Assembly (NCBI GenBank): GCA_021813585.1 | Contig: JAKAJV010000111.1 | Span: 1-53,057 of the forward strand | Length of the DNA: 53,057 nt | Reading direction: 5' to 3' | DNA from: Bacteroidota bacterium | GTDB taxonomy: Bacteria; Bacteroidota; Ignavibacteria; Ignavibacteriales; Ignavibacteriaceae | Part shown: positions 6,828 through 9,605 of the stretch, in pieces | Numbering within the stretch: the first letter of the stretch is position 1 | Layout of the letters: every line of letters begins with the position of its first letter | The notes under the pieces: model-generated | What the model was told of the DNA's origin: nothing | The model's database searches: none | What the model saw: the letters and a program-made list of their open reading frames with translations, nothing else | Translations under genes and position numbers: made by a program

Positions 6828-7388
6828 GTGAGCCTTCGCCACAGAAATAGCTTAATCGGATGCACTTTATTCTTTATCACTACAACTGTCTGGCAATTCC
6901 TTGAACCGTTCGCAGATTCCAAGGCATGTGATTTGTTAATAGAAAATATTAAACATTATCAGGAAAGATATAAATTCATAATTCTTGCTTACGTAATAAT
7001 GCCTTCTCATTTTCACTGGATAGTTGAAGTCAATAAAGAGTGCGGAACAGTTTCTGACATTATGAGGAATATAAAAAAATATTCTTCATGGGATATAATG
7101 GAATATCTAACAAAAAAAGAAGCCGGATTAAACAAAATATTTAAAGAAGCTGCAAAAAATTATGATGATCAGAAAAGAAAATTCTGGATGCCCAGATTTG
7201 ACGATAAAGTTATACGGAATGAAAAAATGTTTTGGGAGAAGCTGCGTTACATTCACAACAACCCGGTTGAAGAAGGATTAGTGATAAAACCTGAAGACTA
7301 TAAATATTCAAGTGCAAGAAATTATGTTTACGGTGATCACACAGTGATTGAAGTAGATACATCTTATGCAGGTATGTACATACCGTAA
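6828..7388 (+). CDS. REP-associated tyrosine transposase (RAYT, TnpA_REP / IS200-like Y1 family)
   Basis: This 186-residue single-strand transposase-like nuclease has the HUH metal-binding motif in MPSHFHWIVEV (His61, His63) and the conserved Y-I-H-N-N-P-V block (Tyr141, candidate nucleophile), followed by the EDYKYSSA segment typical of RAYTs. The start is a GTG at 6828 preceded by AAAAGAGAG. The final residues are part of a segment duplicated immediately downstream. Palindromes of one 24-bp family lie 37 bases upstream of the start and 6 bases downstream of the stop. RAYTs are known to act on REP hairpins in genomes, so these palindromes are its likely substrates. The frame is intact, so the protein could be functional. 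Confidence 0.9.
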   Translation: MSLRHRNSLIGCTLFFITTTVWQFLEPFADSKACDLLIENIKHYQERYKFIILAYVIMPSHFHWIVEVNKECGTVSDIMRNIKKYSSWDIMEYLTKKEAGLNKIFKEAAKNYDDQKRKFWMPRFDDKVIRNEKMFWEKLRYIHNNPVEEGLVIKPEDYKYSSARNYVYGDHTVIEVDTSYAGMYIP

Positions 7389-7393
7389 GATGC

Positions 7394-7417
7394 CTGTCAC
7401 GGAATGGTCCGTGACAG
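7394..7417. repeat. 24-bp REP-like palindrome downstream of the RAYT gene, first copy
   Basis: Arms CTGTCACGGA and TCCGTGACAG enclose ATGG. Read on the other strand the loop is CCAT, so it is inverted relative to the upstream copy at 6768. Confidence 0.88.
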
Positions 7418-7516
7418 CCCGGGAAAATATTCAAGTGCAAGAAATTATGTTTACGGTGATCACACAGTGATTGAAGTAGATACATCTTATGCAGGTATGT
7501 ACATACCATAAAATGC

Positions 7517-7540
7517 CTGTCACGGAATGGTCCGTGACAG
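7517..7540. repeat. 24-bp REP-like palindrome downstream of the RAYT gene, second copy
   Basis: It is identical to the copy at 7394-7417 and was carried along in the 121-bp tandem duplication. Confidence 0.88.
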
Positions 7541-7560
7541 CCCGGAAGGTTACCAGATTC

Positions 7561-8472
7561 TTAAAACAATCCTTCGATTGATAAATATCTTTCCCCGGTG
7601 TCGTAGTTAAAGGTTAATACTTTGCTGCCTTCGGGTATTTCTTCTAATTTCTTTGCAACAGCCGCAAGCGCAGCGCCGGAAGAAATTCCTATAAATAGTC
7701 CTTCTTCTGCGGCGGCGCGTTTGGCAAATTCAAACGCCTCATCTTTTTCAATCGTTATTGCGCCGTCCAGAATTGATGTATCCAGGTTGGTGGGGATGAA
7801 TCCTGCACCCAAGCCTTGCAGCGGGTGCGGACCGGGTTTGCCGCCGGAAATTACGGCAGATGCAGCAGGCTCAACCGCAAATACTTTTATAGCCGGGAAT
7901 TTTTTCTTCAATACTCTTGAAACGCCGGTAATATGCCCGCCCGTTCCAACGCCGGTAATTAAATAATCGAGTCCGCCCGGAAAATCCGAAAGTATTTCCT
8001 TCGCGGTAAAATCTATGTGGGCTTGAATATTTGCAGGATTATCGAACTGCTGGGGTATCCACGCATTTGAATTTCCGGCCGCTATTTGTTTCGCTTTTTC
8101 AATTGCGCCTTTCATTCCCAGCTCGCGAGGTGTAAGTTCAAACTTTGCACCGTATGCCGACATCAGCTTTCTTCTTTCAATCGACATAGACTCCGGCATA
8201 ACAAGGATTATCTCATAGCCTTTTACTGCGGCAACCATTGCAAGCCCAATCCCTGTATTGCCGGACGTAGGCTCAACTATAATACTGCCTTTTTTTAATA
8301 TGCCTTTTTTCTCGGCGTCTTCTATCATCGAGAGAGCTATTCTGTCTTTTATACTTCCGCCGGGATTAGCTTTCTCAAGCTTAATCCACACCTCGTGCCT
8401 GGTGCCGAACAGTTTATTTATTCTTACATGCGGTGTGTTTCCAATTGTCTCAAGGATATTGTTGAATTTCAT
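7561..8472 (-). CDS. cysK: Cysteine synthase (O-acetylserine sulfhydrylase)
   Basis: This PLP enzyme replaces the acetyl group of O-acetylserine with sulfide to make cysteine in the cytosol. The 303-residue protein shows the PLP lysine in GGSIKDR (Lys42), the substrate loop TSGNTG (69-74), the glycine-rich phosphate loop GTGGHITG (about 174) and the family ending [11 protein letters not shown]. The length is normal for CysK; a CysM variant is possible. It lies downstream of cysE on the same strand. Its ATG is only about 20 bases after a strong intrinsic terminator, so full-length mRNA must read through that terminator. A three-cysteine leader peptide lies just upstream, pointing to cysteine-responsive attenuation. 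Confidence 0.93.
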
Positions 8473-8493: not shown

Positions 8494-8531
8494 TTAAAAA
8501 TAAAAAAGCCCTTCGTTTATGGAAGGGCTTT
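8494..8531 (-). terminator. Intrinsic terminator in the cysK leader (candidate attenuator)
   Basis: On the minus strand the arms AAAGCCCTTC (8531-8522) and GAAGGGCTTT (8514-8505) flank a 7-base loop, followed by a U-rich tail TTTATTTTT down to 8494. It ends about 21 bases before the cysK ATG. That distance is too short for a separate promoter, so it most likely regulates read-through into cysK rather than merely ending cysE transcripts. Confidence 0.85.
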
Positions 8532-8555
8532 AATAAAAAAATTATTTAAAAAAGA

Positions 8556-8612
8556 TTAAGCAGCGTCATCCATCAAAAGAAATTTTAATATGTAACAACA
8601 ACATTTAAACAT
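8556..8612 (-). CDS. Poly-cysteine leader peptide of cysK (candidate attenuation peptide)
   Basis: On the minus strand an 18-codon open frame reads MFKCCCYILKFLLMDDAA and stops with TAA. It has three consecutive TGT cysteine codons at positions 4-6. It lies between cysE and cysK, 24 bases upstream of the terminator hairpin. The ribosome site is weak (GAAGATTAGGCA before ATG). The 13 bases 8614-8626 before the ATG can pair with 8548-8561 at the stop codon (with G-U pairs), making a hairpin that would enclose the reading frame. A second overlapping frame (MLLLHIKISFDG, 8604-8566) exists, and its AGG spacing (10) is not better. Poly-cysteine upstream frames that act as cysteine attenuators are known in mycobacteria; function here is inferred. 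Confidence 0.6.
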   Translation of the reverse strand: MFKCCCYILKFLLMDDAA

Positions 8613-8663
8613 TGCCTAATCTTCTTACGGTTATTAAACTCAATTTGCTTAATTGAAAGATAA

Positions 8664-8694
8664 ATTATAGAATTTTGGATGTCAAGTGTTTCAA
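8664..8694 (-). promoter_or_regulatory. Candidate promoter of the cysK leader transcript
   Basis: On the minus strand TTGAAA (8694-8689) and TATAAT (8669-8664) are 19 bases apart; a TTGACA also sits between them with only 10 bases to the TATAAT. The start point would fall near 8657, giving a leader of about 45 bases before the poly-cysteine frame. Confidence 0.4.
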
Positions 8695-8741: not shown

Positions 8742-9605
8742 TCAGATGACAAACTCCATCGTGTTAAAATAATTTTCATTCGACCGGACTTTTACCTCTA
8801 TTTTGCTGTAGACTACTGAGTTCGGCGGAACGCTTTGCGTAACCCATGCGTTGCCCCCGATGATGCTGTTCTTACCGATAACGGTTGAGCCGCCGAGAAT
8901 AACAGCCTGGGAATAAATTATCACGTCATCTTGAATTGTAGGATGCCGCTTAGTGTTCGACAGAGATTTATCAACGCTGAGCGCTCCTAGAGTAACGCCC
9001 TGATAAATTTTTACATTCCTGCCTATCCTGGTTGTCTCGCCGATAACAATGCCGGTGCCGTGGTCTATAAAAAACGGAGAATCAATCTCTGCGCCGGGAT
9101 GGATATCAATTCCTGTAATCTGGTGCGCATGCTCGGTTAATATACGGGGGATGATCGGGATTTCAAGCTTATAAAGCTCATGCGCAAGGCGGTATATAAA
9201 AATTGCCATAAAGCCCGGGTAGGCCAATATTACCTCGTCGATGCTTTCCGCTGCGGGGTCGCCGCGGTAAATTGCGTCGGCATCTTCCCAGAGCATATCG
9301 TGCACTTTAGGAATGGTTGAAATAAAACTCGCAGCTTTGCTCTCAATTTCCCGCTCGCTCTTGCCGTTTATAATTTTTAAAAGAGAAATAACATTTCTCT
9401 CAAGCAGTTGAAGCTTAGCCAGAACATCTTCCTGCGAATAATAAATCTTGTTCGAAAAGTGAGGGAATAAAAAATCTATCAATTCATCCAGCAGATCAAT
9501 TGATTCTTTCTTTAGAGAAGCATTGCACGAATGAAGCTCTCTTTTATCCAGAAGCTTTGCAGCAAATTCCAAATTTGTTTTGCTGTTTTCAATTTTTGCA
9601 GTCAT
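8742..9605 (-). CDS. cysE: Serine O-acetyltransferase
   Basis: This enzyme acetylates serine with acetyl-CoA to give O-acetylserine, the substrate of CysK. The 287-residue protein has an alpha-helical N-terminal half and a left-handed beta-helix made of hexapeptide repeats (GIDIHPGAEID, DHGTGIVIGETT, IYQGVTLGAL, VILGGSTVIGKN). The long N-terminus resembles the EpsC-like serine acetyltransferases. I choose the ATG at 9605. A GTG at 9695 would add 30 residues that do not resemble the family. It lies 96 bases downstream of prfC and upstream of the cysK leader, so cysE and cysK form a two-step cysteine module separated by a regulatory leader. Confidence 0.88.
   Translation of the reverse strand: MTAKIENSKTNLEFAAKLLDKRELHSCNASLKKESIDLLDELIDFLFPHFSNKIYYSQEDVLAKLQLLERNVISLLKIINGKSEREIESKAASFISTIPKVHDMLWEDADAIYRGDPAAESIDEVILAYPGFMAIFIYRLAHELYKLEIPIIPRILTEHAHQITGIDIHPGAEIDSPFFIDHGTGIVIGETTRIGRNVKIYQGVTLGALSVDKSLSNTKRHPTIQDDVIIYSQAVILGGSTVIGKNSIIGGNAWVTQSVPPNSVVYSKIEVKVRSNENYFNTMEFVI

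Follow-up and report, generated by a model that had tools for sequence, protein, structure and literature searches.

The classical attenuators of the trp, his and leu operons combine leader codons for the product of the pathway, an intrinsic terminator and a segment that pairs with the 5' arm of this terminator. A T-box riboswitch for tRNA-Cys would respond to uncharged tRNA-Cys. As regards cysteine leaders, the available part of one study describes uORFC-8-2, a frame with tandem Cys codons located before cysS in Rhodobacterales, together with a predicted terminator with a U run, and proposes stalling and read-through (PMC8632094). Actinobacterial leaders, according to the part available of PMC1262725, have their Cys runs close to the stop and lack a conserved terminator hairpin, and translation attenuation in M. 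smegmatis is attributed to Canestrari 2020 in the available part of PMC13236596, which fits the statement of the first-pass annotation of this DNA that poly-Cys attenuators are described in mycobacteria. In Flavobacterium psychrophilum, attenuation by leader peptides is reported ahead of amino acid operons, cysteine being unnamed in the portion consulted (PMC9723704), and the portion consulted of PMC7366714 mentions such attenuation, or frames that recall it, in Bacteroidota with no cysteine case. The comparative survey of Lopatovskaya 2010, cited in the available part of PMC4833913, could hold overlapping cases. No Cys attenuator is named for Ignavibacteria or Bacteroidota in the literature searched, which was seen in part and with subscription papers mostly outside reach, so that this is weak evidence of absence; in the same material, the only printed Cys attenuator with an intrinsic terminator that we found is the cysS prediction in Rhodobacterales.

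The DNA analysed here, called the window, is a stretch of 53,057 nucleotides whose contig belongs to a 142-contig genome. Direct reading confirmed that the 18-codon leader with three Cys codons and the terminator announced by the first-pass annotation lie between cysE and cysK (Table 1), 12 codons separating the Cys run from the leader stop. The U tract, previously placed about 21 bases before the cysK ATG (8472), was measured to end 22 nt before it, a gap which, judged by its length, is too short for a separate promoter. The possible promoter noticed 5' of the leader has counterparts in relatives, where 10 of 24 type A loci (defined below), the window included, have a TTG..TAnnTT[TC][GC] site of 31-32 nt overall 5' of their Cys run; in the window, its TATCTT part reads TATCTTTC at 8662-8655, near the TAnnTTTG form of relatives. 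Simple-consensus scans of the region are noisy, with 15 promoter-like sites for 7.2 expected and four terminator-like sites for 3.4 expected. The 13 bases before the leader ATG had been said to be able to pair with the stop-codon region, and this pairing is present in the minimum-energy fold, in which it involves 13-14 nt (8626-8613). The 251-nt region has a z of -2.66 relative to shuffles, 2 of 200 shuffles folding equally well. Possible pairing partners of the candidate antiterminator are TCCAT and AGC, located in the 5' arm and loop of the terminator. A scan of the whole window with Rfam at the gathering threshold returned two tRNAs only, with no T-box match and no match to uORFC-8-2, an element that Rfam may lack. 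The upstream gene scores 168.5 bits with the EpsC-type model NF041874 (cut-off 150) and 169 bits with the cysE model TIGR01172, under its cut-off of 211.

Table 1. Coordinates of the leader element and of its flanking genes in the window
Feature	Position	Strand	Remark
Leader frame MFKCCCYILKFLLMDDAA, 18 codons, stop included	8612-8556	(-)	read directly
Leader ATG	8612-8610	(-)	leader TAA at 8558-8556
Three Cys codons TGT TGT TGT, proposed sensor	8603-8595	(-)	read directly
Intrinsic terminator stem	8531-8505	(-)	10 pairs, loop of 7
Terminator U tract TTTATTTTTA	8504-8495	(-)	whole terminator 8495..8531
Promoter-like TTGACA-N17-TATCTT	8685-8657	(-)	10 of 12; for the leader-cysK transcript
Candidate antiterminator segment ATGGATGACGCT, codons 14-17	8562..8573	(-)	per-locus duplex test
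5' segment AAGAAGATTAGGCA, protector-like, segment 1	8613..8626	(-)	minimum-energy fold
Segment that pairs with the 5' segment, surrounding the leader stop codon	8548..8562	(-)	minimum-energy fold
cysK, cysteine synthase A, proposed controlled gene	7561..8472	(-)	NCBIfam TIGR01139, 406 bits, cut-off 351
Serine O-acetyltransferase gene (cysE/epsC-like), upstream gene	8742..9605	(-)	start by inspection

We propose that this element is most likely a ribosome-mediated transcription attenuator, which would control cysK by sensing charged tRNA-Cys. The leader, the Cys run, the terminator, their conserved spacing and, in relatives, a covarying antiterminator pairing are read in the sequences; from them we infer that the leader would be translated, that ribosomes would stall on it, that the element would respond to cysteine and that the weak antiterminator of the window would function. 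Transcription would start just 5' of the leader. When Cys-tRNA is ample, the ribosome would reach the leader stop and cover the last leader codons, the terminator hairpin would form and transcription would end before cysK. When Cys-tRNA is scarce, the ribosome would stall on the TGT codons, some 20 nt short of the last leader codons, leaving the distal codons free to pair with the terminator 5' arm, so that the hairpin would be blocked and cysK transcribed. The idea that stalling at TGT-TGT-TGT favours read-through had already been put forward from the window alone and is supported by the conserved leaders and the covarying pairing of relatives.

The 151 loci encoding cysK relatives gave 132 distinct upstream regions after 18 duplicates and one short locus were dropped, the paralogues L002-L005 being excluded from this count. 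A short frame with at least three consecutive Cys codons (CCC+) is present on the sense strand upstream of cysK or cysE-cysK in 50 of these 132 loci, which is an undercount, as the head-gene rule missed the leaders of L014 and L068. On the reverse strands, such a frame with a start and a nearby stop occurs in 0 of 132 cases, and mononucleotide-shuffled upstream regions contain it in 44 of 26,400 cases (0.17%). In a sample of the order (146 genomes, 70 with cysK at E<=1e-110), a Cys leader was recognised by rule in 49 of the 70 cysK-bearing genomes. Briefly, type A associates the Cys leader with a terminator (15/70); type B has a Cys cluster without terminator (24/70), which in 18 of the 24 ends at most two codons from the stop; and type C has a CxC ending at the stop (10/70). 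No Cys leader was found by rule in 21 of the 70 genomes, two of which resemble type C on inspection (L032, GYISTCIC with a GTG start, and L148, GYFFTCVC, both scored as none). Against the proposal, four same-genus genomes (G006, G008, G009 and G011) have, by the same rule, no Cys leader before cysE-cysK. A common motif, GTTGGCGCAGCGCACT, was observed upstream of cysE in L008, L010, L012 and L013, which are genus members without Cys leader.

Within type A, the Cys run comprises 3 to 6 codons with TGT and TGC mixed; its distance to the stop is 9-13 codons in 23 of 24 loci and 33-39 nt in 21 of 26 loci. The terminator core CCCTTC/GAAGGG is common to all 14 Ignavibacterial sequences of alignment A2. 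The same anatomy is also found before cysE-cysK in L126, and cultured relatives such as Draconibacterium sediminis JN14CK-3 (L108) and Sunxiuqinia indica RC1_OXG_1F (L112) belong to the class with a terminator. The first-pass annotation had suggested looking among related genomes for Cys codons, leader stop and terminator that are kept while the rest drifts, and this is the pattern that the relatives display; by this conservation, the candidate becomes a well-supported attenuator. In another genus member (L014:2399-3021, minus strand), the first gene after the Cys leader and terminator is a DUF4395 gene, which is followed by cysK.

The pairing of the leader segment was compared with dinucleotide shuffles in 24 distinct type A loci, near-duplicates (L046, L048, L111 and L113), exact duplicates and loci without terminator by rule having been dropped. 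In 15 of the 24 loci, pairing between the 5' arm of the terminator and the leader codons that separate the Cys run from the stop reaches p<0.05 (Fisher 5e-16, a combined value that overstates independence since the loci are related), the threshold being missed by L001, L007, L014, L016, L025, L031, L045, L047 and L090. Duplexes with the own arm are more stable than those with swapped arms (mean -13.0 vs -10.5 kcal/mol; p=5e-5 by permutation, the lowest value that the test can give). Both partners change jointly: GGAAGG goes with CCTTCC, AACGGG with CCCGTT (L136), GGGAAAGG with CCTTTCC (L108), ATCGAAGG with CCTTCGAT (L126) and CGGAAGGGTTTT with AAAGCCCTTTTG (L104). This swap test and these joint changes are the strongest points for the proposed type A mechanism. 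The predicted antiterminator starts 12-22 nt past the Cys run in 19 of 24 loci and ends at most 19 nt from the leader stop in all 24. Because its register shifts by one base between loci, column-wise pair counting on alignments A1 and A2 was not used and was replaced by per-locus duplexes and arm swapping. The antiterminator was the main gap acknowledged by the first-pass annotation: relatives fill this gap, their distal leader codons covarying with the terminator 5' arm, but the pairing is borderline in the window copy (p=0.036 in one run and 0.057 in the larger 24-locus run). The protector (1:2) pairing is weakly supported in the type A family, with a Fisher p of 0.0018 across the 24 loci, most of them individually non-significant, and p=0.29 in the window.

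Ribosome-footprint folding of the same 24 loci indicated that the arm is held by upstream RNA at 0.70 with the ribosome stalled on the Cys codons vs 0.30 with the ribosome at the stop; the stalled state is higher by more than 0.05 in 20 of the 24 loci (Wilcoxon p=8e-6), and L053, L104 and L136 go the wrong way. Taken over the relatives, the duplex test and this model predict that antiterminator and terminator exclude each other and that a ribosome standing at the stop hides the antiterminator. Without ribosome, the arm is held at 0.58 on average in this model of the RNA made so far, a value at which frequent read-through would be expected if the leader is not translated, in contrast to the trp paradigm. 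For the window copy, the footprint model is flat (0.20 stalled vs 0.17 at stop). Its full-length fold gives the terminator P=0.98 in all ribosome states, and in the RNA that still lacks the 3' arm the states diverge only at the outermost bases of the arm, the CTTCCAT core being unaffected. Folding of the RNA, which had been proposed as a check, separates the stalled from the stop state as a family average and gives no useful contrast for the window copy.

This flat response is among the points which suggest that the window copy could be a decaying attenuator, whose antiterminator and original leader start have eroded and whose terminator acts mostly as a constitutive brake on cysK. Indeed, only 9 nt lie between the leader start and the Cys run, a distance that amounts to 42-45 nt in six of the seven other type A loci of the genus (L006, L009, L011, L014, L015 and L016; not L007), and the antiterminator ATGGAAG of L011 and L016 reads ATGGATG in the window. 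Against such a decay, frame and terminator are intact, as are the Cys run and its 12-codon distance to the stop, and the duplex energy (-8.7) is near those of L011 and L016 (-9.8 and -9.9). We consider decay unlikely and a working window copy likely, attenuation in the family appearing well supported, even if the duplex tests and the models place the window copy among the weakest in antitermination.

Two further readings concern the leader and the terminator taken separately. Cys clusters generally bind metals, and the leader could act through its product, a nascent peptide or Cys-rich microprotein that would sense free cysteine, metals or the redox state, instead of through codon stalling; selection at the peptide level is indeed suggested by the GYFxTCIC-stop leaders before cysE, in which third codon positions vary most. 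In the terminator class, however, the residues around the Cys run differ between genera whereas the distal RNA pairing is kept, and the run itself varies from 3 to 6 codons, and we regard a peptide role as quite improbable. The terminator might also merely end the transcript of cysE, which lies upstream on the same strand, the Cys frame being coincidental. This reading, to which we give hardly any credit, is already contradicted by conservation, considering the rate of such frames in shuffled regions (0.17%) and on reverse strands (0/132), the mere 22 nt between the U tract and cysK, and the recurrence of the anatomy before the DUF4395 gene then cysK in L014 and before cysE-cysK in L126.

The proposed ribosome-mediated attenuator resembles those of trp, his and leu by its product-codon leader, its intrinsic terminator before the structural gene and its leader segment directed against the 5' arm. 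It differs from them in that the window-type element would sense cysteine and that its antiterminator lies inside the last leader codons, where one ribosome position would mask it; moreover, the no-ribosome state of type A is not clearly off and the protector hairpin is not firmly established. A T-box for tRNA-Cys would share the signal, uncharged tRNA-Cys, but sensing here would be performed by the ribosome. As far as its available description goes, uORFC-8-2 has two Cys codons and precedes cysS in Alphaproteobacteria, whereas 3-6 codons precede cysK or cysE in Ignavibacteria and some Bacteroidia; the window element does not share its location, being found before cysK in what is most probably an uncultivated member of the Ignavibacteria. 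The Actinobacterial polycysteine leaders, in the part of their description available, likewise have a short Cys-run frame before cysteine genes, and their anatomy (stop-proximal run, no terminator) is that of types B and C, from which the window element differs. The attenuation principle is known already, and the cysteine case is more widespread than first proposed.

In types B and C, the leader stop is located 913-991 nt ahead of cysK, i.e. upstream of cysE in the cysE-cysK pair. Pairing with the ribosome-binding site was considered for these types and is not supported, as duplexes were no better than shuffles (Fisher p=0.17; 12/19 loci with at least three Cys) and the longest complementarity to the cysE start equalled that of shuffles (p=0.53; 34/35 loci, L127 having no stop), some cysE starts being rule-picked and possibly wrong (e.g. 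L018). In the 45 nt after the leader stop, C exceeds G in 27 of 27 loci (mean 7.3 vs 2.4), with imperfect controls of 5.9 vs 3.1 just before cysE and of 7.0 vs 8.0 in 55 non-leader regions, some of them coding; this composition is only suggestive of Rho entry as the mechanism of these two types. Type C leaders end in Y[FYIL]x[TSA]C[ILMV]C-stop, which is kept at the peptide level in 12 loci (two identical there), the mismatch by codon position being 0.18, 0.15 and 0.45, and this conserved ending could act by nascent-chain arrest. It was observed in the cysE-cysK upstream region of L023, L032, L033, L132, L139, L144 and L146-L151.

Cys leaders also occur in other settings. Of 29 SAM-I riboswitch loci read, 15 have a Cys/Met leader (e.g. 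MKTENRNIISNKMAMCLCCMMMCISSRKDAA) upstream of the riboswitch and two further ones (L216 and L218) have a Met-type leader; four of the 29 loci were not anchorable, and one riboswitch match below cut-off (L231) was left out. The Cys/Met leaders, of the type MAMC[LC]CCMMMC..RKDAA plus hairpin, belong to L204, L215, L217, L219-L224, L227-L230, L232 and L233. By rule, 16 of the 17 SAM-I-linked leaders have a terminator, L215 having a hairpin without U tract, and pairing reaches p<0.05 in 5 of 16 (Fisher 1.4e-6), the Met-type leaders failing the test (p=0.63 and 1.0). The gene that follows has a metY-like start in 15 of 17 cases; in L233 it is cysH, and in L204 no such gene was found. The one metY-like gene scanned matches TIGR01326 with 660 bits. 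In the window genome itself, neither SAM-I (E<=0.001) nor PAPS reductase (E<=1e-20) gave a match.

In L188, L190 and L193, three or four Cys codons end at the stop about 310-330 nt before cysH, with a single small frame of 74-89 aa between the Cys leader and cysH, and in L175 a Cys run at the stop lies 142 nt before a sulfate-binding protein gene. A Cys leader and terminator stand directly before a tRNA-Cys gene in L173:1396-1760 (minus strand), whose genome has no cysK match; this is the case in one of 30 tRNA-Cys loci read and in none of the 29 others, and is possibly a rearrangement.

We suggest, at about even chances, that Ignavibacteria and part of Bacteroidia run their Cys/sulfur regulon largely by leader peptides with exchangeable output parts. 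These would be the terminator attenuator of cysK; a stop-proximal Cys run or GYFxTCIC before cysE-cysK, cysH operons and the sulfate-binding protein gene, acting by a different route, perhaps Rho or peptide-dependent arrest; and a dual Cys/Met leader with terminator before SAM-I at metY or cysH, reading Cys-tRNA, Met-tRNA and SAM in series. If the attenuator proposal is right, it would explain the regulation of cysteine synthesis in a little-studied class and provide a natural series in which one sensor, the Cys codons, is wired to different outputs, and the Cys/Met leader in series with the SAM-I riboswitch would be an unusual three-signal gate.

When the 146 genomes were searched with a covariance model, 44 of them had a match at E<=0.001, these matches not being all Cys elements; the one strong Cys element that the model found in the window genome is that of the window. 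A weak hit of this model (E=0.04; L158, G000:C88:24239-24349, minus strand) corresponds to a frame, MKDITGTYYLANNLYGQNNWWWYSMQNNMTQ, with three Trp codons (WWW) and a terminator-like hairpin before trpE (TIGR00564, 539 bits), so that leader-peptide attenuation is apparently used elsewhere in the window genome, a point in favour of the cysK proposal. Finally, just downstream of cysK, the window contains an IS200-like (Y1) transposase gene (PF01797, 6828-7545 region), which overlaps a 121-nt direct duplication (7302-7422 and 7425-7545, 98%), each copy of which holds a 24-nt palindrome-like sequence, CTGTCACGGAATGGTCCGTGACAG.
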